Source: Hydnum rufescens UP504 (taxonomy: Eukaryota > Basidiomycota > Agaricomycetes > Cantharellales > Hydnaceae). Taken from it: a stretch of DNA of 64,000 nt. The position numbers and the translations under genes are program-made. The notes beneath the pieces are model-generated. The model worked only from the letters and a program-made list of their open reading frames with translations. It was not told the DNA's origin and did not search any database. Where the stretch lies: contig MU129005.1 in the NCBI GenBank assembly GCA_014904985.1, forward strand, positions 113,798-177,797. Reading direction: 5' to 3'. Positions 8,077 through 51,014 of this stretch are shown here, in pieces. The first letter of the stretch is position 1. Each line of letters opens with the position of its first letter.

Positions 8077-9231
8077 GTAACCGGTTTTGAGGTTAATATT
8101 TGTATGACTTTGAGTGTGTAGAACTAGAGAAATTCTCCCTCCAAACACAGGCGCCCCTTGCGATAAATCCTTAACGCGACACTTTGCATGCAATAAAATC
8201 TAGGCTTTCCTTCTGCTCTATCCGACCCCTGCACGTATATTCCCAATTAAGCTAGGGCGCTGGTGTCTAAGGTTACATGAGCACGTACCGATGGCCTAGC
8301 AATCCCTTGGCCGTGGCACAGTATATTATACCTGTGACAGTCGTTTCACGCCCCTTGCGGGGGAGTCTGCGTTAAGTGCACAGCATGTCGTACGAAACGA
8401 ACACGCCAAACGCCTAGAGTTTCCCTGAAATCCGAAATAGGGAAGATGGGCATCGTATAGGCGGGTCTTTCACCCATGGTGAGGACGGGCAGAGATGAGG
8501 AAAGGACAACTACAGTACTTTACTAGGTACGCACATGAGCTGGCCAACTCCTGGGGCTGACTCAATTTATGCACAGTATCAGGAAATCCAATGGAAAGAA
8601 ACTCTTGTTTGGGGTCGCTAGCTGCGCGATCGAAGCAGTTAGTGGGCCCATCCCACGATATCAATTGTCAACTAAAATCCGTCCCTATTGGGCATATCAT
8701 AAGCAACGATGTCGAACGTCATCCAGTGAGCGATTTTTTGTATTACGTGCCACCCAAGTCCCTTGAGTGTGGACAAGCAACTGTCACGATTGTCGGGTGA
8801 CACGGCGGTCACGTCGCTAGTGGATAATATTACGTAATGAACTTGTTTGCTATTAATCACCCTCCATTACAAATCCTCTGCCTGGTTTATTGTACAGCGG
8901 AATCATCCCTTGCTAACACTATGTCTGCCCAATTCTAAAATCCGAGTCGCGGAACATAAACTTTTGAGAAACTTTTGGATAGATTATTCTGGAAAAAGTT
9001 ACCGAAAATATGAGTAAGAATTGAACAGGATCATTAGGGGTGTTCATGCTGGCAAAAGTAAAATTAAAAGTGGGACAAAAGTGAGACAAAAGTGCACTGA
9101 CTTTCAGTCTCAGTTTTTGCATCACTTCTAGTCAACTTCTACTTTTCCTAAAGGACATTCACGCTAGAAGCTCAAAAGTGAGCCTCGGAAGCACGCTACC
9201 GTGACAGATTCATGTGACGTGACATCTGTCT
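8077..9231. other. Intergenic, no gene seen
   Basis: No long frame, tRNA or rRNA is recognised. Near 9036-9165 a segment starting AGGGGTGTTCATGCTGG is followed by runs of AAAAGTG and a loosely inverted match, possibly a degenerate hAT-type MITE; I do not call it. This is the last CpG-containing stretch before the CpG-poor repeat region. Confidence 0.4.
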
Positions 9232-25938: not shown

Positions 25939-25943
25939 GGGAT

Positions 25944-26900
25944 CTTGATCATGTGACCAATGTCAAAAGTGCTTAGAATGGGCTGAAATTTTGGGCCTGA
26001 GCCTCAAATGGTGGCCGGGTGTGGCCTACAAAAAATGGGAGTGATTGGAGCTCTGGAAGTGCCCCAATTGGGGGGGTATGTCAGTGAAACTTGAAAATAT
26101 TATGGAAACTCTCACACTGGAGTCATGAATCTGAAATTTTGGGGAATGTTATGAATGTAGTTGGATGACCTAAGGGTGAATTTTTAGGGCCATTGCATGG
26201 ATGGAAGGCTCTGGGGAGGAAATTATTATTTAGGGGGGAGTGCTGTGGAATAGTGCCTAGATGGAGTCCAATCAGGCTGATATTTGGTATGTATACTCCC
26301 CATATATGTATTAAACTATTGGTATTATATTAGAGCAACCTCTGCTCTACATCTTATATAATTGACTTTTGATCTTCCTCCCCCTCCCCCTGAATTTCAA
26401 CCACTTCCACACATCCAATGTATTTCATTTTTGGATATAGTCAGTGTTATAATATTCTAAGCCTATTCCACTTAGTTTGGTCCTAATGTGGAGTTTTCTA
26501 CATTTATGGTAGGCTTTTGTTCCCTTTTTGCCTGAAAAGGGAGTTCAATGCCTAGAAGTAAACAAAATAAGCTGATTCTTGGCACATATTTATTTGATTA
26601 CATGGTCATACTCCATGTAAAATTTCAAGTCCATATCTTGTCTGTAGGGGGAGTAAATCAATTTTCAAGGTTGAAACCTATTTGCCTCATATCTCTGTAC
26701 CTACTCCATGGATTTGGCTGAAAATTGAATATTTTCTTTACCTGAGCAGTGTCTAATCACATGCCAAGTTTCAGAATGGTCTGTTCATTGGGTATTTTTT
26801 TTTGGCAATTTTCACTGCCTCTGGTATCCATTGTCCAGTTCCCTACCTTAAAGTGGGTGGATTGGGAAAATTTTTGGCACATAATTAGTACATTATATTA
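25944..26900. repeat. Fold-back repeat fragment, right piece
   Basis: Continues the match to 49345-50300 exactly where the left piece stopped: GATCTTGATCATGTGACC, CTTGAAAATATTATGGAAAC, ACTCCCCATATATGTATTAA and so on. It is non-coding. With 20281-20549 it reconstructs most of one arm of the 3.1-kb fold-back family. Confidence 0.8.
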
Positions 26901-27410
26901 TCAAGTGTTTGGATGAAAGAGGTGAAAGGTTGAGAGGTTGATGGATAGGGCTAAAGTGTGAGAAGGGTGTGAAGTTGATCAAGAACTTAGGTAAGACTTG
27001 TTACAGGTTACTAAGGGCCTTAAATCCTCTCCAAGTGTACTGAAGATCTTCCTCTTGATAAGCTGTGGTAGAATTATTTATGCTAGGCTTAAGCTATTGA
27101 GGGCTTGGTCTTCCAATACTTGTGAAGTCAGATTTCTCCTTTTCTACTGTAGAACTTAGTCTAGTGTGGCTAAGGTGATCTGAATGTGTGAAGAATAGAG
27201 TGAATATTGGGGAATCCCCTCTTTTTCTTGTCTTTCTACCTAAGATTCCCCTCCTTTTATGCCTGTCAGAGAGCCCCTATTACAAAGCATTCCCCTGTCT
27301 AGTTATAGAAGGATGGGAAATGAACCTTTTGTTCTATCCTAAAAATAACCTATGACTCATCTATGACTCATATATGACTCATATGCCCTATTGTTCCTAA
27401 GTGAACTTAG
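26901..27410. other. Intergenic, nothing recognised
   Basis: CpG-poor, no gene. Three nearly identical words CTATGACTCAT, CTATGACTCAT and ATATGACTCAT stand in a row near 27350-27380. Confidence 0.4.
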
Positions 27411-30120
27411 TACCTGGGATTTACAGAGATGCTGGGCAGCTGCCCTGGGCCGCAGCCATGGAACCAGATAGAAATTATATTATAATATATGGTCCCCCAT
27501 ATAAATACTATATAAATATATATTATTATATTAGGTAATATCCAATTGAGATTCAGATTCATCATGTCTTGCAGGTCTGCTTTACAAGGGCACTTGTTCA
27601 GTGCCAGCAATTGCTGGCATTTGAGTTGCATCATCCTCAAACACAACTCCCCACAGTGAACTGAGGAAAAGGGACCACACACCCACTGCAGTGGGTGTGT
27701 GGTCAAATAAAGGTAAGTCTTCCCCCCCTGTAGATACAGCTGTGCAAAAAGAGCAGCAAAAGCTGCTCTTTTTGCACTATTTACTAATGTATTTTTCTCA
27801 AATTCCAGGTGTTCTGACACCAAACTGAATGCCATGTGAACCCCTGTATGAAAAACCAGGCACAAGCCCTTATGGACCCCACCATCCAAAAAGGTATGTT
27901 TTTTTTTAAATCTAATTTTCTATGCATAAGTGATGCAAAAAGGGCAGCCCAAGCCACCCTTTTTGTGTCACTTCTAACATATATTTCTTCTATTCTAGAT
28001 CACATGACTGACATCACCTGAGCCCGAATGCACCACCACCTGAACCCCCTGCACCTGCCTCTCAACACCAAACCAAACCCCATACAACCCCCATATGACA
28101 AACTGGGCACAAGCCCATATGGACCCCACCATCCACATGAATGACAAAATGTGGTACCACACACCTGCTGGAGTGGGTGTGTGGTACTAAAAGGTATGTT
28201 TTTTTAATCTAATTTTCTATGCATAGGTGATGCAAAAAGGGCAGCCCAAGCAGCCCTTTTTGTGTCACTTCCAACATATATTTCTTCTATTCTAGATTGC
28301 GCAACTGACATCACCCAAGCCTGAATGCACCACCACCTGAACCCCCTGCACCCGCATCTTGACACCAAACCAAATCCCATACAACCCCCATATGACAAAC
28401 TGGGCATGAGCCTGTATGGACCCTGCTGTCCACATGAATGACAAAACACAGTACCACACACCCACTCGAGCAGGTGTGTGGTACTAAAAGGTATGTTTTT
28501 ATTATTATCTAATTTTCTATGCATAAGTGGCACAAAAAGGGCAGCACAAGCTGCCCTTTTTGTGTCACTTCTAATATATATTTGTCCTATTCTAGATTGT
28601 GTGACACACATCACCCAAGCTTGAATGCACCACCACCCAAACCCCAGTGACAAGAACCCCTGCACCCACATATCGACACTGAACCAAACCCCATATGACC
28701 CCTGTATGACAAACCGGGCATGAGCCCATATGGACGCCGCTGTCCACATGAATGACAAAACATGGTACCACACCCACTCCAGCAGGTGTTGTAAAAGGTA
28801 TGTTTTTTTACTATCTAATTTTCTATGCATAAGTGGTGCAAAAAGGGCAGTGCAAGCTGCCCTTTTTGCATCACTTTTTGAATTTATAACATTCTATTCT
28901 AGATCGTGCGACAGACACCCAAGCCCCTGAATGAAATACCAATCCCCAAATGATGAGGACCCATGTGGCCATACAGACCCCACCATCCACATGAACGATG
29001 CAATGTGAGGTACCATGCACCCATTACTGTGGGTGTGTAGGTGAGTTTTTTGTTGAAGTAGATACAGTGGCACAAAGAGAGCAGTGAAAGTTGCTCTTTT
29101 TGTGCTGGTTTTCATCCTCAAGTACTAACATATTTTTTTTAAAACTCTAGGTGTACCTAAACCCCTGCATGAGACTGTGGTATCACCCCCTGCATCTGTG
29201 TATCGATTTGGATGAAACCCTGTGTGACCCCCATATGAAAAACTGGGCATGAGCCCATATGGACCCCTCATCGACACAAGGGACTCAATACAAGTACCAC
29301 ATGCCCGCTGGAGTGGGTGTGTGGTACTAAAAGGTATGTTTTTTTTTTAATCTAATTTTTTGTGTGTAAGTGATGCAAAAAGGGCAGTGCAAGCTGCCCT
29401 TTTTGCATCACTTCTAACATATATTTCTTCTATTCTAGATCACATGACTGACATCACCCGAGCCCGAATGCACCACCACCTGAACCCCCCAGCAATGAGA
29501 ACCCCACACCTGTGTATTGACACTGAACCAAACCCAAACTGGGCACAAGCCCATATGGACCCCACTGTCTACATGAACAACAAAACACGGTGCCACACAC
29601 CTGCTCCAGTGGGTGTGTGGTACTAAAAGGTATGTTTTTTTAAATCTAATCTTCTATGCACAAGTGATGCAAAATGGGCAGCACAAGCAGCCCTTTTTGC
29701 ATCACTTCTAACATATATTTCTTCTATTCTAGATTGTGCAACCAACATCACCTGAGCCCAAATGCACCATCACCCGAACCCCCCAGCAATGAGAACCCCT
29801 GCACCCACATATTGACATCAAACCAAACCCCATATGACCCCCACACAACAAACCAGGCACAAGCCTATATGGACCCTGCTGTCCTTGTGAATGACAAAAT
29901 GCAGTACCACACACCCGCTGGAGCAGGTGTGTGGTACTAAAAGGTATGTTTTATTATTATCTAATTTTCTATGCATAAGTGGCACAAAAAAGGGCAGCAC
30001 AAGCTGCCCTTTTTGCATCACTTCTAATATATATTTGTCCTATTCTAGATTGTGTGACACACATCACCTGAGCCCAAATGCACCACCAATTGTGCAAGAA
30101 AAGCAGCCACACAGGCTACT
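27411..30120 (+). repeat. Array A1: nine tandem exon-intron modules with hairpin introns
   Basis: Nine introns lie at 27713-27808, 27894-27998, 28194-28295, 28491-28595, 28798-28902, 29041-29150, 29334-29438, 29630-29732 and 29944-30048. Each has a GTATGT, GTAAGT or GTGAGT donor, a CTAAC/CTAAT branch site (TACTAAC in the sixth) and a TAG or CAG acceptor. Each encloses a hairpin of the type GCAAAAAGGGCAGC..GCTGCCCTTTTTGC; the first has a perfect 16-bp stem, 27742-27757 with 27762-27777. Just before each donor a second hairpin CCACACACCC..GGGTGTGTGG ends the exon-like segment. Donor-to-donor spacing is about 300 bp. Exon-like segments are 138-211 bp, two of them exactly 195. Splicing is predicted, not shown. 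Confidence 0.88.
27999..28193 (+). pseudogene. Exon-like repeat unit (example of a 65-codon module)
   Basis: Read in phase 0 from acceptor to donor, this 195-nt unit is a full 65 codons. Only TGA, TGA and a final TAA interrupt it. Its core, MTNWAQAHMDPTIHMNDK then YHTPAGVGVWY, recurs in the units at 28296, 28596, 29439 and 29733 in the same frame despite many C/T differences. The TGA codons stand where other units have CAA or where CGA would fit. It may once have coded a protein of 65-residue repeats, one per exon. Alternatively the frame is an accident of amplification. Confidence 0.4.
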
Positions 30121-30205
30121 CTTAGGTGCATGGTGAGCCCACCAGGTCAACTGATGTAAATAATATTATAGCTGGGGCCCCAGGGGCCCCAGGGTCTGAT
30201 ATCTA
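30083..30205. repeat. Inverted repeat left of the recombinase gene
   Basis: Contains a hairpin variant (AAGAAAAGCAGCC..GGCTACTCTTAGG), GGTGAGCCCACC and GGGGCCCCAGGGGCCCC. The reverse complement matches 33085-33235 over about 55 bp (GGCTCACC..TGCACC..AAGAGTAGCCTG..GGCTGC..TTCTTG) and more loosely over the GGGGCCCC part. Confidence 0.55.
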
Positions 30206-30361
30206 GTTAGAGTATGTAATAAATACTGCCCTTGAAGCATCTAATTAGATGCAGATAATTGGCTGACTATGCTGGTGAGCTCACAGTGATCAAAGGTCAT
30301 GTGATCCCTTATCAACAGACAAGGGTATGACTGGCAGAACCAAATAGTGTAGCTGTGCAGT

Positions 30362-32930
30362 ATGGGCCACTCAAAAAAGGTTGGCAAAGCACAAGCAAGG
30401 ACTACATCTGACCAGGTTCCTGTCTCCACTGGTGCCCCATCTAGCTTGGTCTCCACTCATCTCAAGGCTCCAAAAACAAGGCAGACATACAATGCCCAAC
30501 TTAATAGGGGGCGAAAGTGGCTAATTCAACAGGTTGAAGCTCATGCCTCTGCTAGGGCAGCCCCTTCTCCTCATGAACCACCTGTGGTCCTTGATGATGA
30601 ATGGATCCAGAATCCATTTCTCCACCCAAAGTCCATACTGCTCTTGACACCCCTGAAGCATGCACACCTGCCCTGCTGGCTCAGTACATCACACACCAAT
30701 GTGTAACTGAACATCTTTCTGAGTCTACTGCTTCTGCAATTCATGCAGCATTCAAACTAGCATTTATGGAAATGTGAGTGAACACAAAACCCTTTTGTGA
30801 GAATCTGATCACTAAATTCATTGGATGCTGATGGATCCATTGGACTGCAGTCCTGGAGGGAAATACACTGGCCCATGGAGATCCCCCCAATCTTCAGCAC
30901 CTGAAGGGTCTGAATGCTCTGGTAACCCATGTGATGATCTTCTAGTAAGGAATGTGATGAAGTCAATCCAGAATTGGGACCAGGTAGAAGGAGCCCAATG
31001 CCAGCATTCTCGTGCAATGAAACTGCAGGATCTTAGGACTATATGGGAAATCAGCATGAAGCATTGCCCAGGAAATGTTTTGGATTGTGCTCTTGGAGGA
31101 GGTCTTGCTGATTTGGAGGAGAGAGCCCTGGTCTTCAAGCATCTACTTTGGCAGGCTTTTTCATCCCTTGCATGGACCCTTTGGACATGGTATTCTAATT
31201 GATCTCTTTGATATTACCTTGAATACACTGAGTAACATTCTCTTGTCTAAACAGGAACTTTGAAACCACAAACTTCCACTTCTCTGATTTGAATTATGAT
31301 CATCAAGAAGACCATGGTGTTCCACATGTATGAATCACTCTCAGTAACGCATAAGGCTGGCAGAAGAGAGCCCAGAAGGGGGACCCAAACCTGGAGGAGC
31401 TGCGAGGTACTGTGCTAACTGGGAATTTCTAGATACTCAAACTTGGTGAATTAATCATTTGCATATAGGACATACATATAACATTTACCCAAAATTGGAT
31501 GAGCCCTGCATTGATGCTTACATCAATGTTCAATCCTGGCTTCATTTTCTGCAACTCTACTATTTCTCTGGCAATGATCTCCCATCATCACAATTTATCT
31601 TTCCCTCAGTGAACACTGCAACATACAATATCAATATGGATCAAGAGATGTCCAGTAATTCAGTCAATGAGATGATCAAAACATTTGCTAAAAATGCAGG
31701 TCTTATCCATGGCAACAACTCAGATATTACAACATTCACTACACATTGTTTCAGGCAGGGTGGTGCACAACATGCCTTTATGTATGCTCCAGTTGGTGAG
31801 CGCTGGACCTTGGCTCTGTGTTGCTGGTGGGGTGGATGGGCACCTGGTGAGAGTGTCAGTTTTCTGGACACAAAGTTGTTGCCTTGTGGTGCCTGATCCA
31901 CCATATCAATCCCACTAGCAAAACACACTGATGCATTACCTACTGGATGAATTGCAAACCTATGAGGAGGACTACAGTGACATACTTGCTCCCATCCACC
32001 GTGGCCAACATGAGTCACTTGTGGGGGAGGCTGCCTCCCTCAGCTATCTCACTGCAGAAGAAAGTCGTGCCTGGCTGGATCTTGTATCTGCACGCTTGGA
32101 TGCTGTCCAGACCCAACTGTCCCAACTGACACTCTCACTGAACAACCACCTGACCCAGAACCCACCAAGTATGACCACATTCTAATATGCAAACCTTCCT
32201 TGGTACTCAATATGTTCTGCAGAACTGTCTCAGAGTGATAAGGATGAAATTATTGAATCCCTTCGATCAGAAATTCGCACAATTCTCATCAATGTTCATC
32301 AGGGTATGTGTTCTTGATTCATATATTGTGCACTGGGGAGACTAATGGTATCTCCCTCTGAAAGAGGCTGGGAATTCAAACCCTGGTATGTTCTCCAGTT
32401 TATGCTGTGTCCCCTGTCCCCAATGTAGGTTTGGTTCTTAGATCCCCAGCCAACTGAACAAGAAGTGTCCAATGTCAACCCAAACCCAACACCAATGGCA
32501 CCCAAAAGACCATTACCCCCTCCCTGTGGTACTGTTCCTGATGCAGATACCTTGGACCAGTGGTTGAAGGACTGGAATGTGGCCCAGCCACCTCATCTTA
32601 CCATGGCACTGAAGGAATGGGATCCCTCATGGGTCAAGGGGGAATATAAGGCATTGCATGGTATGAAGTACCATTCACGCAAGGTAGTAGGTCAAGAGCA
32701 TGAGAGGTTTGTGAATTTTCTGTGGCAAAATGTATGTTGTGGCACCCTCACTAACTAATTTTCTGGCTTAGGCTTGGTGCTGAGGAGTTTGCTCAAGTGT
32801 ATGCTGATGCCATCTCTACTGGACACCCCACAAAAGTCCTGAAGGCCATAAATGCTGCCAATCCCATGTGCAAAACATGGAAGAGCAACAAGAAAATAAT
32901 TGTAGAATAACCATTGATGTTGCATTTGTC
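30362..32930 (+). pseudogene. Crypton-type tyrosine recombinase with GCR1_C-like tail
   Basis: Exons joined by clear introns (30774-30850, 31190-31254, 31407-31468, plus later ones) give a protein with a basic N-terminus, SAIHAAFKLAF, GKYTGPWR, HSRAMKLQDLRTIWEISMKH, then across introns TLWTW|NFETTNFHFSDL and GWQKRAQKGDPNLEELR|GHT. The catalytic region reads TTHCFRQGGAQHAFMYAPVG (the HxxR motif), WWGGWAPGE and LMHYLLDELQTYE with the likely nucleophile Tyr. The C-terminal part (32465-32890) gives TLDQWLKDWN, MALKEWDPSWVKGEYKALHG and KYHSRKVVGQE, as in the GCR1_C-like DNA-binding end of basidiomycete Cryptons. Family members cut and join DNA through the Tyr, without a DDE site. A frameshift near 30645 and a few stops (for example TGA near 31333 and TAA near 31350) make this copy inactive. 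Confidence 0.82.
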
Positions 32931-33084
32931 TCAACCCAGTCACCCAAAAATGTATATCTAGTTAGATATTATGAGCCTTGCATTTATATACTCTCAGCCT
33001 GGTCACTTTTCCACATCATATTAGGTATAGTGAGCATTGTATTTAACTAGGTCTTTACATGTGGAGGCCCCCAGGGGCCCCTGC

Positions 33085-33235
33085 AGTACAATCAAGGGAC
33101 CCCCAAGCAGCCCAGGGGCCCCTGGCAATTTGATTGTTTATTATTATTATTATATTATGATTTCTATATGCATTGATAGGCTCACCCATACACCCAAGAA
33201 GAGCAGCCTGTGGCTGCTCTTCTTGTAATATAGTG
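33085..33235. repeat. Inverted repeat right of the recombinase gene
   Basis: Partner of 30083-30205. It has CAGGGGCCCCTGG, an ATT-rich run, AGGCTCACCC and the hairpin AAGAAGAGCAGCC TGT GGCTGCTCTTCTT, a perfect 13-bp stem that is a variant of the array hairpin. Confidence 0.55.
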
Positions 33236-33240
33236 TATTA

Positions 33241-34608
33241 TGTTGTAAGTGGGAAGCAGAGGTTGAATCCAGCCACAGTCCACAAAATGGAAATGAGGAT
33301 GAAGAGAGGGGATCATGGGTTCAATCTGTAGGTTGAGGTCTGAGGGAAAGAGAGGTCTTTGGACATGTGGAATTGTCCTGTATAGAGAGAGCCTATCCAG
33401 ACAATAAATGAAGGGGTTGTTAAATCAGGGAATCACACTTTAGGTCCTCCTCTTGAGAGCCTATCAAAAGTGTGATTAGTGGGGGTTGAGTTGTGGAATT
33501 TACCCTGACACCAGCAGCAGTTCAACTAGCTTTTCAACTGGGGATGGGGGAAAGACAATGGAAATTCGCATCTCCTGCACTTAATATACATCACAGAAAA
33601 ATTCTATAGTAACCGGTGGAAAAGTGGGGTTAAGGCGAATATGATGAAAAAGGAATCAAGTCAAAAGCTTCAAAACTGAAGGAGATATTCAATTAACAAG
33701 TCAGAATAGGGGAATATGGCTTAACCAAGGTATTCCTCCTCTCCTACTGAACAGAATCCCTTGGGGAAAGGTGGAACTGGTCGCCCTAGATGTACCCTCC
33801 ATTGGACATAGGGTGCCGGAACCATAATTGCCCTTAGTAATCAGAAAAGCGGAGATAAAAGTGAAATGAGACATGGGGAGACTAAATTACAGGAAGCCAA
33901 GTTCTAATCCGCTCGTTTTTCCCTTGGTACCATTCAGTGCGGATTTCCAGTTTCCTTCCAGGGGTGGTCGTTTCTAATGAATCGGATCAAAACTGGTGGA
34001 GATATTTGCAAAATACTGAAAGATAGTGTGGAGCATGAGGTAAAATTGACCTGGAGGATGTCAGTTCACATCCGATAAATGCGTGTGTGGTACCGTTTGA
34101 TAGGTATTGATCGTAGCTTTCTGGGAGCTATTTTTTTGAGTCTATCCAATCAAAAATGAGGGAGATATTCGTGAAATACTCCTTGAGAGTATTGGAATAG
34201 CCCCTATTTTACATGTGACTAATCCACGAGTTGGATCCAAAGGATTAGGCAATCTTGATTATATAATTGGGACTCATATATTGCCCTTGAGGCAATGGCA
34301 CAGAACACTGGATTGAGCTTCAATGAAGAGGGCAAGTTGAATTGCCAAAGCCACAATTGGCTGGACTCGAGGTAAATACAAAATCAGGTGGTCTGTTGAG
34401 GACCTGGAGGTTGACAAATAATTGTCTCATATACAAGGTGGAGGAGGAGTGAGTGGGCCACAGTTTTGAAAGAGGGGAATCCATGCTATTTAATAATAAA
34501 AGGAATGATGAGAGATGGAAGAGGCAGAGTTGAATATATTGGATTCGTTTGAGGAGGTAGTTGGGCAGTAATGTGAATTCTACATGGTGGGGATTTATCC
34601 CTCCAACA
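33241..34608 (+). repeat. Repeat R1, copy 1 (possible solo LTR)
   Basis: 1368 bp beginning TGTTGTAAG and ending TCCAACA, so the ends are short inverted repeats of LTR type. It is homologous to 61430-62795 at high identity and to 37000-37960 at lower identity. Shared words include GTCCTCCTCTTGAGA, GACAATGGAAATTC, TACTCCTTGAGAGTAT and GGGATTTATCCCTCCAACA. No coding region is seen. It splits the E1 LTR at GTGTATTA|CATAATTAAG. Confidence 0.75.
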
Positions 34609-35029
34609 ACATAATTAAGTTAGGACTCAAAAGTCATGTACATATGGCAGATTCCAGGGAATCAATAGAAAACCTTTGCCTGGATCTTTGTCACCTAGTG
34701 AGAAACCATGAACCTCTGTCTCTACTCTGCTTCTGTCTTGCTATCTGCTTGGCCTGTCTAGTAGCCATCAATACTAGGCCTTTCTCTAGCCCCCACTTTC
34801 AAGATAATTGGCTGGATATTGTAGGAGGACTTGTCATTTAACTGGAATTCCCTACACCCCCTCCTCTTCCCCTTGTACATGGGCACAATTCCCCCCTCCA
34901 CCATAATTGTACATTCAACAGAAATCTACTGTCTATATCTTTCCAACAAGCCTCCTGGTTTTATGAGGATCACACTCCACAGGCCTTGTACTTCGCCAGC
35001 AAGCCTCACTGCAGTGGGATTGAATTCCT

Positions 35030-35330
35030 ATCACATGACCACTTGATTCATGTGACCTCAGGATGCCAGAGCTCCTGCAGTGCAGGCATGCAAACTGCTG
35101 AAGCTTGATCACATGGCCTCAAGATGCTAGAGCTCCTGCAGTGCAGGCATGCAAGTTGCTGAAGCTTGGTCATGTGACTGAATGTGACCAGAGCTCCCGC
35201 ATTGCAGGCATGCAAATTGCCGAGTCTGGATTACATAATTCTGGAAGCAAATGCAGAAAAGTTGCATAGTGCACTCTGGAGAGCCTGGATCACCTAATCC
35301 TGGAATGAAATGGGACCTCTGCCTGGAGGG
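35030..35330. repeat. About 67-bp tandem repeat in the second E1 copy
   Basis: Three to four units with CAGAGCTCCTGCAGTGCAGG and CATGCAAACTGCTGAAGCTTG followed by a TCATGTGAC-type word. Confidence 0.7.
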
Positions 35331-36999
35331 ATAAATTACCTGATGTAACAACACACTCCTAATGGGCCTAAAGCTATGGAGCACACCTCTAAGGCATCCA
35401 ATTTGTTCATATTCCTCCTACTGTAATCATCCCCCCTGGCAAACCTTTGGGTCCCCATACACTCCTTCCTTCAATTCTCCCTGAGTTTTCCACCTATGGG
35501 CATTTAATTATACTCCACAGAAAGCTATTCTTTCCATCTCTGCATCAAGCATAATTTCAGCCTGATGAAATCAGTATTGCAAGCTTGGCAGTAGCATCTT
35601 TAAATGGGTCTCCTCCTGGCACTCATTCCCCCATATCTCCTCCAATTCATGACAAAGCTATATGATCCCAGATATAATGGATACATATAATCCAATTTTT
35701 CCACAATCTGTTGAGTTTGGAGATTTTGGCTCAGCCATTATGGAGTAAAGGGACACTCTTCTCCCCATCTATGCACACTGGATGCCCCCTGCCAATTTGC
35801 TTGTATCTCCCTCAATTCCTAATGGATTTAGATGGTTTAAATTTCCATGGAAGCAGTGGATCAAGACCATCCATAATCCATTTATACCTTGGAATTTAGA
35901 GCCCCCATTGCAGAATAGTGGGATCCTTTCCTCACATTATCCTCCTTTGGACTCCCCCACCAGTTTGGCCATATCTTCCTCAATTCTGGCCCAATTTACT
36001 TGATTTTAATTTTAATGGGTACATCTGCTTCATCTCCACATATATCCATATAGGTGAAGGCTTTGGTGCAGCCATCAGAGCAATGTTGAACACTCCCTCC
36101 ACCACCTCTCCTCCCTTTGCCTCAAATCCCATTCCCTTTCCATCTCTACCAAATTTTAATGGGTTTTCTCATTCCAAAAGTGAAAGATAGTCTTTCCTGT
36201 CTTATTTTTTTTCCACCATTGGCCATCCCCAGTTCTTGGACTGTCAAGCTAGTGCTTCAGTCCATGAATTTCAAAATCCCTCCTCTAGATCTCTTTTCCC
36301 AGGTCTACCCCTATTCCAAATCACTCCCAAATGGCCCCAATGGATGCCCCCAAACCCCTACTCTCCATTATGCCCCTTCCAATCATATTCCACCCACCAA
36401 ACCCCAGAAACATGTCCCTATCCCAGCTTTATGGATAAATACTCTGGGAAAGATTTCTTTTGGTTTGGAAGGAAATCAACAACATTACAGCCTGCTGGCT
36501 AATGGCAATCCTTAGTCCCACCAAAGACTTTGCCCACCCACCCACCCAGTCTTTGGTGTCTTACCCAACACTATCCAATGCCATCAAGCCTGGGGGGCAG
36601 TAGCCAAGATATTGAAGGATCCTAGAGGCTTGAAGATATTTGGATAAGGCCACAACTCTCTTCCTCTTCTGTGGTTTCCCTCCCTCTTCCCTGCCACTTT
36701 CTTTTGGTTGTTTTCTTCTTCCCAGATTCAAAGGTGACAAGTCATTGTTTTAAAAGTCCAAAGCTTGGAACTGGATTATATTGTTACATTCAGAGTTCAT
36801 TCATTGGATAATTTGGCTCCTACTTATTACCATCTTCTTTGTGTTTTTCTTTCCAAAAATAGTACTATATAGTATTAATTTCATGTCTCTTGGTTCAGAT
36901 GTTGTATCTACCCATTGTAAGGCCTTGCAAGATATATATGGCAAGTAGTGAGGGTGGCATCCATAGGTTATGATCTCCCCCCAATTAGTAAGTGAGCAA

Positions 37000-37960
37000 G
37001 AGTGGATTCAGAGGTTTGGCTGACCTCAGATGGGTGAAGGTCCTTTGGATAAAATGTGGATTTCTGTAGGCAAGTGTTGCCCAAGCAATCAAAGGAAGGA
37101 TTAAAGTTGAAATACAAAACCACACTGGGAGGCTCTTCACTTGAGGCCTGAATCTAGTGAGGTTTTAGTAGTGGTTTTCATGCAGAAATCACCCTAGAAC
37201 CAGGAGCAATACTTCAGTGCTTCAGACTAGGGGAGGGGGAAGACAATGGAATGTTGAGTGTTCCTAACTTAATATACAATTTGGCTATGAGATGGAATAT
37301 CCAGTAGAAGAAGGGACATAGGGCAAGTACACAGGAAAATAAATCAAGTCAAAATCTTGAAAACTGACAGAGATATTCAATTTACAAGTCAAAACAAGGA
37401 AAGAAGGCATAAAATGGCTATTCCTCCCTCCCCTTTGGACAGATTCCCTTGAAGAATGGTGGAATAAGTCCTTCTGAATGTCCTCTCCATTTGATCTAAT
37501 GTATCTGGACAGTAATTGATATTTGAAAATCAGAAGGGGGATTGATGTTCTTCTGAGACATGGGGGAGTTCACATGTAGAAAGCCAAATTCTTCATCATT
37601 TGGGATGCTCTAGACATCTTTGGATAGACAATTTAAATGTCTTTCTGGGCATGGTCATTATGAGTGAATTGGATGCAAAATGGTGGAGAAAATTGAAAAA
37701 TACTCCCTGAGAGTATGTGTCAAATAATAAAATTGTTCTGGAAGCCTCAGTTTTCATCCAATACACATGTAATCACTATCATTCAATAGGTATTGATAAT
37801 AGCTTTCAGGGCACTCTATTCTCAAGTGAATCAGATTAACACTGACAGAGAAAACTGGAGAATACTCCTTGAGAGTGCCGCATTTGCCCCTATATCATGT
37901 GACTAGTCCATATTGGAACAGGAGGGCAATTGCCAGATTTGGATTACATAACATAAACTT
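37000..37960 (+). repeat. Repeat R1, diverged copy
   Basis: Matches 33450-34250 in order (GGGGGAAGACAATGGAA, AAATCAAGTCAAAA, CTGACAGAGATATTCAATTT, ACTCCTTGAGAGTG) but with many small deletions and almost no CpG. No coding region. Confidence 0.65.
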
Positions 37961-38329
37961 GCCAAGGCAGCAGGAAGTGTGTGAAGGAATTGAAGGGGAA
38001 TTCAAGTCCATATACAAATGGGAAGTTGAATTTCCAGTTCACAATAAATTGAGCTTGTGGTAAGACATAAAGTCTCCATGACAATTCATGCTGACCACAA
38101 AATTGCCATGGCAAAGCCATGAATAACATTCAAAGCCTTCAAAAACATTCCAGAACCTGCAGGCACTTTCTATTGATCTACTGGCTGCAGGAAATAAGTG
38201 GGAAAAGTTAGGAAGGCTAGATAAGTGCAACTAAGTGATTGAAAAGAGTGACTAAGCAGACACTAAGTTGGGATTTACTGGATTTACTGGATTTACTGCT
38301 GATTTACTACTAGTAAAATGAGAGATACA

Positions 38330-38820
38330 GCCTGGTCAGCCAATTATCAGCTAGATACTTCAAGGGTTGCATTTATATCTCTAACTAGATATCAGCCCCA
38401 GCCTAGTCAGCCAATTTGCAGCAGGGGAACTGGCAAATATAGTCATGGGGGGAATCAACTGGAGCAGGATCAAACAACATTGTGAGTGGAAGTACATGGA
38501 TATATTAGTTGGGAGGTATCAGGATAGGTCCCGGCAAGCCTAGGAATGCCCCTGAATGGGTGAGTGGGCCATACAGGCTTTTCAGTAATTGGGATTGCTT
38601 CTTTATTACTGTCTGTTCATTCTCATTATTACACATAATTATTCATTTATTATATTATTATTATTATTATTCTACTATCATACATGATGTATCCCCCTGT
38701 CTCCCCCATGTTTTTATTCAGTGGGGTCGCAGGTTTTCAGTCAGCGGGTTTATGAATGGTGGTTGCAGGTTTTGGGACCAGGGGGAGGGGGACCCGTTGG
38801 AGGTAGGTGTAGGCTGTGGG
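38330..38820. repeat. Inner part of the right inverted arm
   Basis: CAGCCAATTATC..ACTTCAAGGG..CTAACTAGATATCAG (38335-38397) is the reverse complement of 30200-30280. Then comes GGAGCAGGATCAAACA..TGAATGGGTGAGTGGGC (38460-38570), which is repeated in the same orientation at 46925-47040, and a TTATTATTATTA run. No gene. Confidence 0.65.
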
Positions 38821-40450
38821 GTCAGAAGAATACCTGGAATAAACACTACATTAGTGAAATAAAAGAAAAGCCACACAAAAGGAGCAGCCTGTGCTGCTCC
38901 TTTTGTGCAATCATACTTGTAGCTTGAAATACATACCTTAAAAATCACCACACCCACTGAAGTGGGTGTGGCTCATATGGGTTCTCAGCATTGCGTCACT
39001 TTGTGTCATCATTGCATGGGTGGTTTTTGTCATCCGCATGGGTCTCGTTCAGTGTGGGGTCCTTGGCAGGTCATCGTTTGTGGGTTTCGTTTGGCAGGCT
39101 GTTGCTTCAGGGGGGGGTTCATTTGGCTGTTCATTCTTAGTTGGTGGCCATTCATTTCATTGGTGGAAGTTCAGGCGATGATCTAGAAAAATCAATAGAA
39201 TTAGTTAGAGATTGAAACCAGTGCAAAAAGAGCAGCACTGGCTACTCTTTTTGCACCATTGGGGGTTACAAATGGTACTTACCTTAGATAGAACCACACA
39301 CCTGCTATGGTGGGTGTGTGGTTTGTTTGGTCACTCAGTGGGTGCATTGTTGTTTGTCATGCTCATCTGCTGCATTGCTGCTGGGGCCCTGGCTGGTTGT
39401 GCTCCTGTGGTTTTGTGGGGTTTCACCTGGTGCCTCAGACCAGTTATGGCCTAGAATAATACAACCATATATTAGTAAAATACTCAAAGCAGCACAAAAA
39501 GAGCAGCTTTTGCTGCTCTTTTTGCGCCACTGTACATATAGGAATTAAAAATGAATGGCCCATAAATTACCACACACCCACCACAGTGGGTGTGTGGTTC
39601 ATTTGGGGCATTCCTGGTTCATGGTTTACACCTTGTTTCGGGTCCTTGTTTGGTGGGTTGCTGTTTGGGGGTTGTGTTTGGCCTGTGTCCATGTGGTGGT
39701 TTGTTGCATTGGGGAAGGGGGCTTGTTTGGTGGGTCTTTACTTTGTGGGTTCTGGTTCAAGTGATCACCTGGGATAGTACATAAGATATTAGTTAAAGAT
39801 TAAAACAAAAACCAGCACAAAAGTGCAGCATTCGTTGCACTTTTTGCACTGTTGGGTGTACTGAATTACTTACCTTACATAGAACCATGCACCTGCCATG
39901 GTGGGTGTATGGTTCATACAGCCACTTGTTGGCTGCATTCTTGCCTACAGTCTTGTTGGTCACAGTTTCATTCATTGTTTTTGCCTCACATGTGTCTGTT
40001 TGGGGTTTGGCCATTTGCATGCCTGTTATTGGGTGGGTCCCACTTCATGCCCTGGATCAGGCCACAATCTAAGAGAATAAAGATTAGTTAGTAAAGAGAT
40101 TTAAAGCAGCACAAAAAGAGCAGCTTTTGCTGCTCTTTTTGCGCTGTTGTATCTATTACAACAGAAAAACTTACCTTGTATGACCACACACCTGCTGCTG
40201 CAGGTGTGTGGTTGTTGGCTTGCCTGTTCAGTGTGTGGCTGCGTAGTTTCAGAGACATGAATGCAATGCTGGCAATAGCTGGTACCCAAAAAGTGCCCAA
40301 GTGCCAGCCCTTCCACTGTTAACTGTTCATTAAAAAAATGCTTCCTAAGTCCAGATTGGGCCTCACAAAACTGCAGGGTCCTCGCTGATCTAATATTTTT
40401 CAGGAAGCAAACTGATTTTCCGCCTGGCAACCATGATCTCAGTTCCAACT
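38821..40450 (-). repeat. Array A2: five tandem exon-intron modules with hairpin introns
   Basis: On the minus strand introns lie at 40069-40174, 39769-39873, 39451-39570 (weak donor GTAATT), 39183-39282 and 38834-38936. Donors are GTAAGT or GTATGT, branch sites CTAAC or CTAAT, acceptors TAG or CAG. Each encloses a hairpin; its colour changes with compensation: AAAAGAGCAGC/GCTGCTCTTTT, AAAAGGAGCAGC/GCTGCTCCTTTT and AAAAGTGCA/TGCACTTTT. The CCACACACC..GGTGTGTGG hairpin precedes each donor. The first exon-like segment (40215-40448) resembles the one before the first intron of A1 (GGGCACTT..GCCAGCA..GCAT). Spacing is about 300 bp. Confidence 0.86.
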
Positions 40451-40955
40451 GGGGCTGGGCCAGCCAACCAGGATTACTCCAGATTTACAGGGGTCCACAG
40501 CCATGTCTGGTAAATTGGTCAAAGTGTAGGTACTTATTGTTCTACTCTAAAATATCTTATGATCCACACATTCTAGAAGGGTGTAGCATGGCAATGGTTC
40601 TAGAAGGGTGGAGTCCATGTTCTAGAAGAGCACAGCATCTCCTAATGGTGTTGCTATGGCCCTTAATGTTCCCCTCAATATTGACTACCATTTATGGATC
40701 AAAAGGACTCTTAAGTCTTGAGGCTAGCCTTACCAGGTTACCTAATTACATGTCTAGGTCACCCAGCTTTACTAGTGTGGCTGCCTGGTAAGACTTAGAG
40801 CTGAAATAGCCTAAAAAGTGTTTCTTTGACCCAGATATGCTTGTACTTCTACAAGTGGCACAGACTTTTCATCACAGTCCCTTGTGATCACTGCAGCTTT
40901 ACAAGGCTTTTTGGATGAGTGGAGACTTTTATTGTCTCAAAAATGCAGACTACAT
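40451..40955. other. No gene; short repeated words
   Basis: TTCTAGAAGGGTG(G/T)AG occurs two to three times near 40570-40630. Otherwise nothing is recognised. Confidence 0.35.
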
Positions 40956-44637: not shown

Positions 44638-44879
44638 TTCTGTATTCCTGGTTCGGTTGAGGTATGCAGGGTGCCTCTTCTGTTTCAGGTCTTGAGCCAG
44701 TGTGTGGAGTCACCTTGGTCAGTCATCTAAGCCTACCTAGTTAGGTACCACTTCCAGGGCAGATAATGGTACCTAAGTAGGTCCCATCACTATTTCGGCT
44801 GAAATGGCCATTTTTATGATTTCACCTCCTGGCCCAGAATTGGCTGAAATGGCTGAAAATTGGCTCAAACTGGGACTTA

Positions 44880-45870
44880 GAGAATCTCAGACTTGCAGTG
44901 GGCCATATGGGCATATCTGGGATAGTTCCATTTATAATTATTTCTTTATTATCACTATTATACATATGCTTACCCCCAGGGTTTTGTTCAGCAGTCCTGT
45001 GTTTTATTCTTATTGACTTGTTTATTTGTATTTATTTATCTAAAAATTCACCACACCTGCTGGTGTGTGGTACCATCTATAGAAATCCAAAAAAAAAAAC
45101 CAAGTAGTACCACACCCACTTCAGCAGGTGTAGTACTGTGCATAGAAATTAAAAAAAAAAAAAAAACTATATACTGTAGTAGCACCACACACCCACTTGG
45201 GTGGGTGTGCAGTACCATCCATAGAAATTTAAAAAAAAAAACTATATAGTAGCACCACACACCCGCTTGGGCAGGTGTGTGGTACTGGGGGTGTGGCTTC
45301 ACACTTCACTGTTGGGCATGGGTTATGGGTTGCTGTTCAGGTAGGTCATCATTTTGGGAGCCTTGGTTTGAATCCTACAATGATAAAGTATGTTAGTAAA
45401 AAAAATTCAAAGTGATGCAAAAGGAGCAGCTTGCACTGCTCCTTTTGCATCATTGTGCATATAGGAATTTTAAAAAAAAAGCTACCTTGTTGTACCACAC
45501 ACCCACTGAAGTGGGTGTGTGGTACTCGTTTGTACTGTGGTTGCATGTTAATTTTGTGTCTGGGGGTGGTCATCATGTGGGTGGGTGGTTGGCTGCATGG
45601 GTTTCTGTTCTCATGTGTTTTTTTGGTGGGGTCATGGGTCTCGATTCTGACAACTTAGGATAGTGAATATGTTAGTAAAAAAAAGAAAAAGAAGAGCCAT
45701 GCAAAAGGAGCAGCATACACTGCTCCTTCTGTGTGGTTGTACTTACCTTAAAATCACCACACACCCGCCAAAGTGGGTGTGGGGTTTGTCTGGGGCTTGG
45801 GTTGTGGTTTTTACTTGTTGCTGTCCACAGGTTCTGTTTGGTGGGTGGGCCCAGGCTGGTCAACCATATT
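44880..45870 (-). repeat. Array A3: hairpin modules with a ladder of exon hairpins
   Basis: Introns on the minus strand: 45375-45485 (donor GTAGCT, branch TTACTAAC) and about 45654-45746 (donor GTAAGT, acceptor uncertain), with hairpins AAAAGGAGCAG/CTGCTCCTTTT. At 45050-45290 four copies of the exon hairpin (CCACACACCCGCTTGGGCAG type) stand about 75 bp apart, each joined to ATAGAAAT and a run of 10-16 A on the + strand; here the intron hairpin is absent. The left edge (44900-45000) matches 38570-38720. Confidence 0.75.
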
Positions 45871-46224
45871 TCCTACCTATGATAGGTATCATATATCAGG
45901 CAATATTTGATACCTAGTTAGGTCTAGCAACAATGGGGTGCCATGGGGGTGCCAATTGGTATTCAATACTGGAAAATGAGAGTAAGTGGGGCCCCATTGC
46001 ACCCCAGTGGGGCCCCATTGCACCCCAATGGGGCCCCATTGTGGCCCCAAAATGTGCCCTTGATGCTCTTTCATATTTTCCACATCACTTGGGGCCCAAA
46101 TGGGGCCCCACTACATGACCTTTCAAAACTTTGTTTTCTGAACATAGTATATTGCAGTATACTGGCCGAAACCTTCATTTTTAGTGTCTAATGTGAATGC
46201 TACATTATGTCAAGTATGAAAGGG
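45871..46224. repeat. GGGGCCCC direct repeats
   Basis: GTGGGGCCCCATTGCACCCCA occurs in tandem (about 45989-46040), with further CAAATGGGGCCCCACT at 46097. No gene. Similar GGGGCCCC blocks occur near 30180, 33070, 33110 and 47380. Confidence 0.6.
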
Positions 46225-46800
46225 TTAATCCTCATGTCCAAGGACAAGATCAAGAGAGGTTAAGAATGTGAGATCTTCTAGCTCAGGTTGCTCCTCTAAC
46301 TCACCATTTTCATCATCATCATCAGAACTTGCTCCCAGATCCCCCTCTTCCCCTTCCCCAGGGGATAAATCCTTCTCTGCTTGTACTCTCCCTTGCCGGC
46401 AGACCCATGCCCTCCTTAAAGGAGGTGGCCAGTCTGGAATGTTCCCCCAATCCAGCTGCCCATCACTACCAGCAAGCCCAGTAGTGTGATGTTGCCAGGT
46501 ATCAACAAGGTCATGCAACTGGTGTAGCTCTATCAAGGCAAAAAATTTAACATCTTCATCTGTTAAAATCCCAGCAGCTGTTAGTTTACAATAATTTAGT
46601 CAAGTCAGAAGGACCACACACCATTGCAGAGATCAACAGTGCACTGGGTAGCAACACATTGCATTGAAAACCAAGACCTTAGGTTGGAGAGTTCTGCCTT
46701 ACAGTGTCTAAGCTCCTCACAGCAGTTCACCAGCTCCTGAGCATGCCAGATGCCACTATGGACTTCCTTGTCTGCAAGCCATGGAGGTACCTTCCACCTC
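46225..46800 (-). pseudogene. KDZ transposase C-terminal fragment
   Basis: Exons 46800-46622 and 46577-46225 flank a 44-nt intron (donor GTGTGT at 46621, ACTAAC branch, acceptor CAG). The spliced text reads VPPWLADKEVHSGIWHAQEL, EELRHCKAELSNLRSWFSMQ, then AAGILTDEDVKFFALIELHQ and ends in an acidic tail (DDDDENGELEEQPELED). The PPWLADK..IRA..EL..C..E pattern followed by helical text and an acidic end is typical of basidiomycete KDZ C-termini. The catalytic domain is missing. Confidence 0.65.
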
Positions 46801-46924
46801 GGTCAGCCACTTGGGCTGACCTTAATAGGCGGGACAAATCCCTCATCTAGTCAGCCTAAGAGGCCTATTTTTTCTTTGATGTCAATTGACAATCCTTGGA
46901 TGTCAAATTGACATCTGGCCATCT

Positions 46925-47600
46925 TTCTGGAGCAGAATCAAACACTGTGAGCAGAAGCATATGGATATATTTGGTTGGGGGGTATCGGAATAGGTCCTGG
47001 AATGCCCGGGGACACCCCTGAATGGGTCAGTGGGCTGGTTGATTCCCAATATGGAAATGTAATTACATAATAGCCTAAATAGGAAATTATGTAATTCACC
47101 CAAAAAGCAGTGACATAATCATACACAGTAGCAGTATTATGTAATGTATTACATAATTAATTGATGACATAATTAATTATATTATATAATACATATTACC
47201 TAATATACATATTATCTAATTAGTCATTACCTAACTACTACCTAATTAATTATATAATATAGGTCACATGACCAGCACTCGTGTGCCAGTCATGCAAAAA
47301 GAGGGGGCACCCCTGCCCCAGACCAACTGGAGGGGTGGGGCAGGGGTCAGAGGTGCCCACCAGAGGGGATGGGGGCCCCTGGGTGAGGAACTAAAGGATC
47401 CTATAATGGGGGGTTGACAGGTTAGTTAAAAAAATCAATAGTAGTGCAAAAAGGGCAGCCAGAGGCTGCCCTTTTTGCACTAGAGTAGCTAAAACTGTAA
47501 TAACATACCTTAACACCACACCCCAGTCTATACTGGGGTGTGGTGGCTTGTCCTGGGCTCTTGGTAGATTGAGGTGGTGGTGTTGTGCAACAGAAAAAAT
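46925..47600 (-). repeat. Array A4: single hairpin module
   Basis: Flank 46925-47040 matches 38460-38570. One intron on the minus strand, 47401-47508 (GTATGT donor, TTAACTAAC branch, TAG end), encloses AAAAAGGGCAGCC..GGCTGCCCTTTTT. It is preceded by the exon hairpin CCACACCCCAGT..ACTGGGGTGTGG, a changed but still paired version. Between flank and intron lies an ATTATGTAAT-rich run with many TACCTAATTA words. Confidence 0.75.
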
Positions 47601-47682
47601 TTTCCAGCAATTGCCAGTAAATTGAACCCGGGACTCAACACCAGCAGTTGCCCAGTTTCAAAGCAAGCCACCTGCTGCTATG

Positions 47683-50600
47683 AAAAAGCCTAAATGCGGT
47701 AACTAGATAGACCAATATAAAAGGGTGGATTAGATGATACTCTATAATAACTTTGGATCATAGCCAATTACATAATACAATGATTCCTATTAAAAAAAGC
47801 CTAAATGCGGAAATTGGATGAGGTACATCCAAATAACCACTGAGCAGATCATTCTGAAATTTTGTACATAATTAGATGCTACTTCTATGCAAATTATATC
47901 AAAATTTCAGCCAAATTGGTGCAGGGGTTATGAAGATATGAGGCAAACAAGTCTGGACATTGAAAATTCATTTCCTCCCCTTGCAGAATAGTTAGAGACT
48001 TGAAAATTTTCACAAATCCATACAATATAATTTACTAATTATGTACCAAAAATCAGCCCAATCCACACACTTGAAGGGAATGAACTGGACAATAGGTACC
48101 AGAAGCACTGGAAATTGCCCAAATGTAAGGAGTGCAAGGATCATTCTGAAATTTGGCATGTGATTAGATACTGTTTAGATGAAGACCATATCAAAATTTC
48201 AGCCAGATCTACTCAGTAAGTACAGAGATATGAGGGAAACAAGTTTAAACATTGAAAATCAATTTACTCCCCCCACAGACAAGGTATGGACTTGAAATTA
48301 GACATGGGTCATGACCATATAATTAAATAGCCATGTGCCAAAAATCAGCATATTCTGTTTACTTCTAGACATTCAACTCCCTTTTCAGGCAAAAAGAGAA
48401 CAACAAGCTACCATGAATGTTAAACAGTTTAAATTACACCCAAAATAGGTGGAATGGGCTTATAATATTATAGCCCTGACTATATCCAAAAATGGAATCA
48501 ATTGGATGTGTGGAAGTAGCTTAAATTGAGGGGGAGGGGGAGGAAGATCAAAAGTGAATTACATAAGATGTAGAGAAGGGGTGGCTCTGATATTACACCA
48601 CTGAGTTAATACATATATGGGGAGTGTACATGCCAGATATCAGCCCAACTGGACTCCATTTAGGCAGTGTTCCACAGGCCTCCCCCCTAAACAACAATTT
48701 CCTCCCCAGAGCCTTCCATCCATGTAATTCCCCTGAAAATGCACACTTGGGTCATCCAAACACATCTATAGCATTCCTCAAAATTTCAGATTTATGACTC
48801 CAGTGTTAGAGTCTCCATAATATTTTCAAGTTTCACTGAGATACACCCTCCAGTTGGGACACTTCCAGGGCTCCAATGACTCTGAATTTTTGTAGGTCAC
48901 ACCTGCTCATCATTTGAGGCTCAGCCCCACATTTTCAGCCCATTCTGAGCACTTTTGACATTTGTCACATGACCAAGATCTTCCCCTCCCCCTGCTTCAC
49001 TCAGTCATCCAATTTGTGTAGATATTGTTTCCATCTGCAGTGGTAGTATGTGACAGTGCATGATTCAAATTTCAGGAGATTCCATGCAATATTGATTGAG
49101 TTATTCAAGAAACATTCTAGATCAATTCAATTTGGGGGTCAGAACAGCAGTATTTCCACTAAATACCGCTGTTCTGACCCCAAATTGAATTGATCTGGAA
49201 TGTTTCTTGAATAGCTCAATCAATATTGCATGGAATCTCCTGAAATTTGAATCATGCACTGTCACATACTACTACTGACAGATGGAAACAATATCCACAC
49301 AAATTGGATGACTGAGTGAAGCAGGGGGAGGGGAAGATCTTGGTCATGTGACAAATGTCAAAAGTGCTCAGAATGGGCTGAAAATGTGGGGCTGAGCCTC
49401 AAATGATGAGCAGGTGTGACCTACAAAAATTCAGAGTCATTGGAGCCCTGGAAGTGTCCCAACTGGAGGGTGTATCTCAGTGAAACTTGAAAATATTATG
49501 GAGACTCTAACACTGGAGTCATAAATCTGAAATTTTGAGGAATGCTATAGATGTGTTTGGATGACCCAAGTGTGCATTTTCAGGGGAATTACATGGATGG
49601 AAGGCTCTGGGGAGGAAATTGTTGTTTAGGGGGGAGGCCTGTGGAACACTGCCTAAATGGAGTCCAGTTGGGCTGATATCTGGCATGTACACTCCCCATA
49701 TATGTATTAACTCAGTGGTGTAATATCAGAGCCACCCCTTCTCTACATCTTATGTAATTCACTTTTGATCTTCCTCCCCCTCCCCCTCAATTTAAGCTAC
49801 TTCCACACATCCAATTGATTCCATTTTTGGATACAGTCAGGGCTATAATATTATAAGCCCATTCCACCTATTTTGGGTGTAATTTAAACTGTTTAACATT
49901 CATGGTAGCTTGTTGTTCTCTTTTTGCCTGAAAAGGGAGTTGAATGTCTAGAAGTAAACAGAATATGCTGATTTTTGGCACATGGTTAGTTAATTATATG
50001 ATCATAACTCATGTCTAATTTCAAGTCCATACCTTGTCTGTGGGGGGAGTAAATTGATTTTCAATGTTTAAACCTGTTTCCCTCATATCTCTGTACTTAC
50101 TGAGTAGATCTGGCTGAAATTTTGATATGGTCTTCATCTAAACAGTATCTAATCACATGCCAAATTTCAGAATGATCCTTGCACTCCTTACATTTGGGCA
50201 ATTTCCAGTGCTTCTGGTACCTATTGTCCAGTTCACTCCCTTAAAGTAGGTAGATTGGGCTGATGTTTTGCACATAATTATACATTGTGTAGTTATGCTC
50301 TGTGCAAATTTTCAAGTCCCCAGCTATTTTTCTGGGGGAGAAAATAAATTTTTAATGTCCAGAGTGTTTCCTTCATATCTCCATAACCTATGCATGAATT
50401 TGGCTGAAATTTTTATATGATTTGCATTGAGGTGATTCCTAATCACATGCCAAATTTCAGAGCGATCTGCCCAGCGCTTATTTCTCGGCAAGTTCCGGTG
50501 GTTCTGGTGATGTTTTTACTGCTCTCATTGTTTCAGGCACTAATCATTGGCCCTGGGCCTGATTTTTTCACTCTATTGGGGTCCCTAGAGGCCCATCCAT

Positions 50601-50790
50601 CTATCCCAGGCACCTCCCCCTGGTCCTGGGCCCCCATTGGGCTGGATGCTTAAATTTTTTTGGATGCACTTCATCCAATTTCCGCATTTAGGCATTTTTT
50701 TAAATAGGAAACACTGTATAATGTAATGGGATATTATCTAATGCACCCACCCCCATTGGGCTATCTGATTACCGCATTTAGGCTTTTTTA
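47683..50790. mobile_element. 3.1-kb fold-back element
   Basis: Left and right halves are reverse complements of each other over about 1.4-1.5 kb, with a centre near 49157. The terminal repeat AAAAAGCCTAAATGCGGTAA is followed inside by a second, nested end (AAGCCTAAATGCGGAAATTGGATG / CATCCAATTTCCGCATTTAGGC). Both halves carry the same ordered words (TATTGTCCAGTTC, CTTTTCAGGCAAAAAGAGAA, CACTTCCAGGGC, TTGATTGAGTTATTCAAGAA). There is no coding region. Fragments of the same family lie at 20281-20549 and 25944-26900. I could not find a convincing target duplication. Confidence 0.85.
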
Positions 50791-51014
50791 TTATACAGTA
50801 TATCTTGTGTATATATTAATTATTAAGTTTGTTGACTGACATTTTGCACAGTGCTCATAAATGAGGCACTCGACATTGCTTGATGTCAAAATATTGTCAA
50901 ATTGTAATTGCCAGTTGTCAAATTCAGCTTTTTGATCATCACTTGACATCAAACTTGATTTCAGCCATTTAGGCCTACCTAAGTCATCAACATGTCCCTC
51001 CTTTTAAGGCCCCT
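50791..51014. other. Short spacer, no gene
   Basis: A/T-rich, with repeated TTGACATCAAA-type words (CGACATTGCTTGATGTCAA and CACTTGACATCAAACTTG). Confidence 0.4.

Follow-up and report, generated by a model that had tools for sequence, protein, structure and literature searches.

The stretch of Hydnum rufescens UP504 analysed here (64,000 nucleotides of contig MU129005.1, hereafter the window) contains tandem arrays, termed A1 to A4, of a recurrent module. Each module starts with an exon-like unit that carries a hairpin close to its 3' end, some 12 nt upstream of a GT donor, and continues with an intron-like stretch of about 105 nt that comprises the donor, an 18-bp stem, a branch site and an acceptor. 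For array A1 (27411-30120), the original prediction had described nine GT-AG introns, each with a stem and a branch site. GT donors (seven GTATGT, one GTAAGT and one GTGAGT), AG acceptors and an enclosed stem are indeed present in all nine predicted introns, which measure 96-110 nt; eight of the stems were flagged by computation and the ninth (28798-28902) is visible in the sequence. The branch site is less uniform than claimed, with CTAAY readable in seven introns, CCAAC in the third and none in the fifth. Tandem Repeats Finder returned periods of 297 and 294 bp, in agreement with the proposed spacing of about 300 bp. The alternation of hairpin-bearing exons and introns holds for eight of the nine introns, the exception being the one at 27894, which has no exon hairpin upstream. 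Comparison of the fold of a single module with shuffled sequences gave a z score of -7.95. The central observation on A1, hairpin-bearing GT-AG introns in tandem exon-intron modules, is thereby confirmed.

Eight further introns had been proposed on the minus strand in A2, A3 and A4. Seven of them possess a GT donor (four of five in A2, two in A3, of which one is the weak GTAGCT, and one in A4), while in A2 the donor of the intron near 39562 is lost. A1 and A2 are parts of one mobile element of 13.1 kb, A4 lies within a separate 4.2-kb element, and A3 adjoins a KDZ (Kyakuja-Dileera-Zisupton) transposon (Table 1). At the end of A3 (45070-45290), shortened modules repeat the exon hairpin and the start of the intron without the intron stem and the acceptor. 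A tRNA scan of the 64-kb window found none.

Table 1. Features of the window and related complete elements; coordinates refer to the window.
Feature	Coordinates	Strand	Remarks
A1 arm	27405..30274	+	element end to terminus-like motif (30260-30274, 2 mismatches)
A1 predicted intron 1	27713..27808	+	GT, stem, branch site, AG
A1 predicted intron 2	27894..27998	+	exon hairpin missing before intron
A1 predicted intron 3	28194..28295	+	branch CCAAC
A1 predicted intron 4	28491..28595	+	stem, splice signals, fold test
A1 predicted intron 5	28798..28902	+	without clear branch site
A1 predicted intron 6	29041..29150	+	stem, splice signals
A1 predicted intron 7	29334..29438	+	stem, splice signals
A1 predicted intron 8	29630..29732	+	stem, splice signals
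A1 predicted intron 9	29944..30048	+	stem, splice signals
13.1-kb mobile element	27405..40536	+	ends ACTTAGTACC and GGTACTTA; A1, A2 facing inward from both ends
Tyrosine-recombinase-like gene pieces	30353..32182	+	open pieces 30353-30703, 30816-31199, 31450-31893, 31919-32182
Stretch missing in C48 copy	33244..34611	.	C48 goes from 33243 directly to 34612
A2 arm	38328..40536	-	terminus CAGCCTGGTCAGCCA at 38328
A2 predicted intron 1	40069..40174	-	stem, splice signals
A2 predicted intron 2	39769..39873	-	splice signals
A2 intron 3	39451..39562	-	donor lost
A2 predicted intron 4	39183..39282	-	stem, splice signals
A2 predicted intron 5	38834..38936	-	stem, splice signals
Empty target site GTACTGAA of 5,628-bp element	39858..39865	+	element present in C310 copy
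A3 arm	44711..45851	-	terminus-like motif at 44711
A3 predicted intron 1	45654..45746	-	stem, splice signals
A3 predicted intron 2	45375..45485	-	weak donor GTAGCT
KDZ transposon	45852..53727	-	terminus CAGGCTGGTCAACCA at 45852; KDZ domain 51973-52833; CxC1 53005-53727
Complete array element holding A4	46795..51034	-	4,240 bp; duplication GTACCTTC; inserted in KDZ transposon
A4 predicted intron	47401..47508	-	stem, splice signals
Complete array element, L031			5,325 bp; C48:143968-149292; 8-bp duplication CCTTACAG
Complete array element, L032			5,628 bp; C310:40115-45742, in C310 copy of 13.1-kb element; 8-bp duplication GTACTGAA

Modules of this type are abundant in the genome. A profile built from 16 window modules matched 220 modules in the window and loci L009-L032, and 271 in the window and L009-L036; the latter are distributed over 27 of 29 stretches, with one to about eleven modules per arm. 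Most loci had been picked by their likeness to A1, and those taken instead from the top of the hairpin-pattern lists (L033-L035) carry the same arrays. Across the whole 63.2-Mb genome, the exon hairpin was matched with at most one mismatch 4,495 times on the forward and 4,487 times on the reverse strand (reversed control, 0), corresponding to some 4,500-9,000 hairpins, because one near-palindrome can count on both strands. The intron stem gave 2,742 forward and 2,779 reverse matches, again with none for the reversed control. On the long contigs heading the match list, exon-hairpin matches are mostly clustered. Among the exon hairpins of 144 modules, 37 distinct loops were counted.

The boundaries of the 13.1-kb element are defined by comparison with its relatives. 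The copy at C310 matches the window piecewise over 27403-40536. The left end recurs with no more than two mismatches at ten places, nine of which are shown with different flanks. For the right end there are seven further strong matches, including C310, and five of these begin at 40536-40538. Both ends carry the short direct repeat ACTTA. Empty sites with a single ACTTA were found for the window copy (exact at two places, 34 within three mismatches) and for the C310 copy (three places with 1-3 mismatches); the controls gave 0 in each case. One of the two exact sites lies on contig C158, which may be a second copy of the window region, since it repeats the window's KDZ end and its flank. Based on its absence from the C48 copy, we take the stretch 33244-34611 to be a later insertion into the element; similar DNA is also present near window positions 61442-62793 and in other loci. 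Another repeat, of about 950 bp, forms an inverted pair in the A4 element (48024-48980 and 49336-50286), occurs once to the left of A1 (25941-26899) and also adjoins the left element end in L016.

Between its two arrays, the 13.1-kb element harbors a gene that is in pieces in all copies seen. Its blocks HCFRxGGAQ and WWGGW are common to proteins some of which are named integrase by one source. The window piece matched Pfam below the cut-offs, three of 13 relatives matched Phage_integrase (best E 0.0005), and a PDB search gave a weak match to IntI4 (E 0.056). Eight interior pieces of the element had no above-cut-off match in Pfam, and a structure model of the recombinase piece was set aside (pLDDT 47.5). 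Given the weakness of this family evidence, the gene is likely, but not firmly, a decayed tyrosine recombinase, and such an enzyme likely moved the element. Relatives of the gene (P0001) are encoded at seven places, five close and two diverged. As the arrays far outnumber them, the arrays are not tied to the recombinase-like gene.

A different architecture is seen at 13 of 23 loci and at all three loci of a further set, where an array on the minus strand precedes one on the plus strand, such that both point outward from a core. This core is palindromic, 360-1,070 bp long and with 83-98% similarity between its arms, at six of ten compared loci and at the three further ones; among the other cores, that of L031 has arms only 72% alike, that of L020 has 150-bp arms, and two lack a palindrome. 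Two arms of one locus often resemble each other more closely than arms of different loci do (72-93%), although L022 and L023 depart from this pattern. Outside the arrays lie CAGGCTGGTCAG-type termini, a motif with 263 + 237 matches genome-wide (control, 0). In the window and L009-L036, where many stretches are too short to hold both ends, a search for termini that pair through matching 8-bp flanks identified three complete array elements of 4.2-5.6 kb with exact 8-bp target duplications. The largest of them sits inside an A2-type intron, and the window provides the empty site of this element.

The termini also link the arrays to KDZ transposons. The terminus of the KDZ transposon in the window is also that of three similar KDZ copies, among which the C158 copy duplicates the window flank. 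The distance from the KDZ domain to the terminus is 1,825-1,845 bp in three other copies and 1,873 bp in the window after removal of the A4 element and one 8-bp duplicate. Moreover, the KDZ gene at C5, a locus selected because a terminus lies close by, has about 100 bp of terminus in common with the array elements. The opposite end of the KDZ transposon in the window was looked for and not found, nor was a complete element with a KDZ gene and both ends. Zisupton and Dileera are reported to generate 8-bp duplications (PMC12730594). Because the array elements and the genome's KDZ transposons have this terminus in common, we regard the former, on sequence grounds, as likely non-autonomous KDZ elements. 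Elements of the hAT group, which also make 8-bp duplications, were set aside for the array elements, as the terminus shared with KDZ genes favors KDZ. The KDZ protein of the window has its best named matches in Hydnum rufescens UP504 (62-93% identity over 48-92% of the query among the named rows high in the list). Genome-wide, 136 KDZ-like places were scored, many of which carry in-frame TGA. Copies often differ by CG to TG or CA changes, which fits the decay of methylated CpG.

KDZ transposons are not the sole carriers, because a side family (L025 type, at C166, C233 and C174) has its arrays inside an element with other ends, TAGGGTATTGCACGGGG (TAGGGT). Its C233 copy has CTAAGTAC on both sides; matching flanks were not seen in L024. 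By their motif alone, these ends and this duplication may be of hAT origin. The stretch between the two arrays in L025 (around 4800-5200) and L026 reads by eye like a fragment of what we take to be UDP-glucose 6-dehydrogenase, as if a piece of a host gene had been captured. The C166 copy (L024, 2967-5378) forms a 2,414-bp palindrome, its arms 98.7% identical, with an array intron hairpin precisely at its centre. This arrangement suggests that hairpins seed inverted duplications and that folding can matter to rearrangement.

We consider it probable that the arrays serve as arms of DNA transposons whose movement likely depended on a KDZ-type transposase. Two of those in the window in addition make up both ends of the 13.1-kb element, for which a tyrosine recombinase is the likely agent of movement. 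A separate issue is whether their intron signals are in use. Among the 271 modules, 212 could be scored because the stem core was located. On the sense strand, 173 of the 212 have a donor with 7 or more of 8 letters matching before the stem, as well as a branch site and an acceptor after it; on the antisense strand, 1 of 212 does. The 173 introns placed in this manner have a median length of 105 nt, which falls to 67 nt when the hairpin is removed (172 introns); the median length of the 90 internal exons is 168.5 nt. When the 150 best of 516 matches were aligned with a CM, both sides had changed in 19 of 29 pairs, in the exon as well as the intron stem, and 95.4% of cells pair, although such an alignment is fitted to the structure and leans towards it, and the modules are mutually related. 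None of 500 shuffles reached the observed covariation. Comparison with known RNA families gave nothing beyond four miRNA matches that fell far under the gathering scores (best E 0.021).

Alignment-free counts are consistent with a role at the RNA level. G-U outnumbers A-C by 259 to 114 in the intron stems of 265 modules, where 23 loci lie above parity, 3 below and 1 is tied, and by 119 to 79 in the exon stems of 245 modules, where the corresponding numbers of loci are 17, 6 and 3. Such an excess is expected if sense-strand RNA pairing matters, whereas a mere DNA palindrome would produce equal numbers. Part of it may be mutational, because CpG differences outside the stems lean likewise (575 CG/TG versus 483 CG/CA, in pairwise counts that reuse sequences). 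These data bear on the possibility that the repeats act as DNA only, as subterminal transposase sites or cruciforms, with inherited but unused intron signals. The arrays do adjoin element ends, one palindrome is centred on an intron hairpin, and the tandem repeats in the arms of Galileo have been proposed to serve as secondary transposase sites (PMC3573991). However, neither the conservation of donor, branch site and acceptor on one strand only nor the excess of G-U over A-C is needed for a function as DNA alone, and we regard this explanation as unlikely. The intron grammar and the covarying stems instead make splicing likely, and splicing of the array introns is strongly predicted from these sequence features.

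Could the arrays be the remains of a protein-coding gene with tandem repeat exons? The lengths of 40 of the 90 internal exons are divisible by three, and many in-frame stops are TGA, which the decay of CGA can generate. Yet stops are not depleted in any of the three frames of the internal exons (182, 169 and 181, versus shuffled means of 162, 154 and 143), and no long open frame was found across spliced A1 in three frames. The exons therefore look non-coding, and a decayed gene appears very improbable.

The original prediction had inferred that splicing or folding matters to the spread of the modules. Movement of modules from site to site in the manner of introners is not supported: the mobile ends are CAGGCTGGTCAG-type termini with 8-bp duplications and ACTTA repeats with empty sites, and a check of the copy boundaries found them unrelated to the GT and AG positions, an outcome that the original prediction itself had named as counting against it. 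While similar folding introns are numerous and introners with target duplications and inverted repeats have been described (PMC9860276), it is hardly credible that each intron or module is itself mobile, given sharp boundaries and duplications at element ends rather than at GT or AG, the mostly clustered matches on the top-listed long contigs, and the lack of copies of the one exon-exon junction pattern tried, which leaves no sign of spread via spliced RNA. The unit hairpins, in their thousands, probably travelled within whole transposons rather than jumping as single introns.

The arms would most likely be transcribed from the core towards the element end, giving rise to multi-intron non-coding RNAs. 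Their introns would then be spliced, with the stem looping out about 40 nt and thereby bringing the donor close to the branch site. The KDZ enzyme would act in trans on the array elements, and the transposase or the recombinase would move whole elements, not modules, whose number may be altered by DNA recombination between repeats. Our leading guess on the benefit of this arrangement is that efficient splicing keeps element transcripts from silencing. In Cryptococcus, siRNA production can be triggered by stalled spliceosomes, as described in PMC6643885, and by analogy one may guess that well-spliced introns could spare an element from siRNA silencing. It is tempting to go further and envisage a transposon lineage with a non-coding splicing-array body, whose hairpin-assisted introns, up to a dozen or so in each arm, splice well enough for its transcripts to evade splicing-coupled silencing and whose shield was adopted by further mobile elements, the 13.1-kb element and the L025 type among them, although we rate this full scenario as quite unlikely.

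Our results present intron arrays as building parts of transposons rather than as units that move by themselves. Should splicing occur, the related hairpin introns, thousands in a single genome, would offer a natural library in which to study the influence on splicing of RNA structures located between the donor and the branch site. They would also allow a test of whether efficient introns help transposons against splicing-coupled silencing. In addition, empty sites and nested insertions make the history of the elements readable.

Among the papers listed in searches of the open-licence PMC literature, we found no description of such an element, but several known systems share some of its features. 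Like KDZ transposons, the arrays are associated with 8-bp duplications and have a terminus in common with the KDZ genes of this genome; unlike them, they contain no internal transposase, and their arms consist of non-coding hairpin-exon/hairpin-intron modules and in many cases flank a palindromic core. Long inverted arms with variable numbers of tandem repeats are reminiscent of Drosophila Foldback and Galileo. The divergent arrays display both hallmarks of foldback elements, long inverted arms and tandem repeats, whereas the 13.1-kb element has inward-facing arrays. In contrast to Foldback and Galileo, the repeats described here carry spliceosomal intron signals, the modules point outward from the core, and the transposase group indicated by the terminus is KDZ rather than P. 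Cryptons are reported to have short terminal direct repeats (PMC3212892). The 13.1-kb element resembles them and MarCry-1_FO, which itself joins a Crypton with a DDE transposon, in its recombinase-like gene and short terminal direct repeat, but differs in having arrays with KDZ-type termini at both ends and a gene in pieces. Finally, introners and introner-like elements likewise comprise many similar, foldable introns, whereas the introns of the arrays are internal parts of a larger mobile unit whose boundaries lie away from the splice sites.
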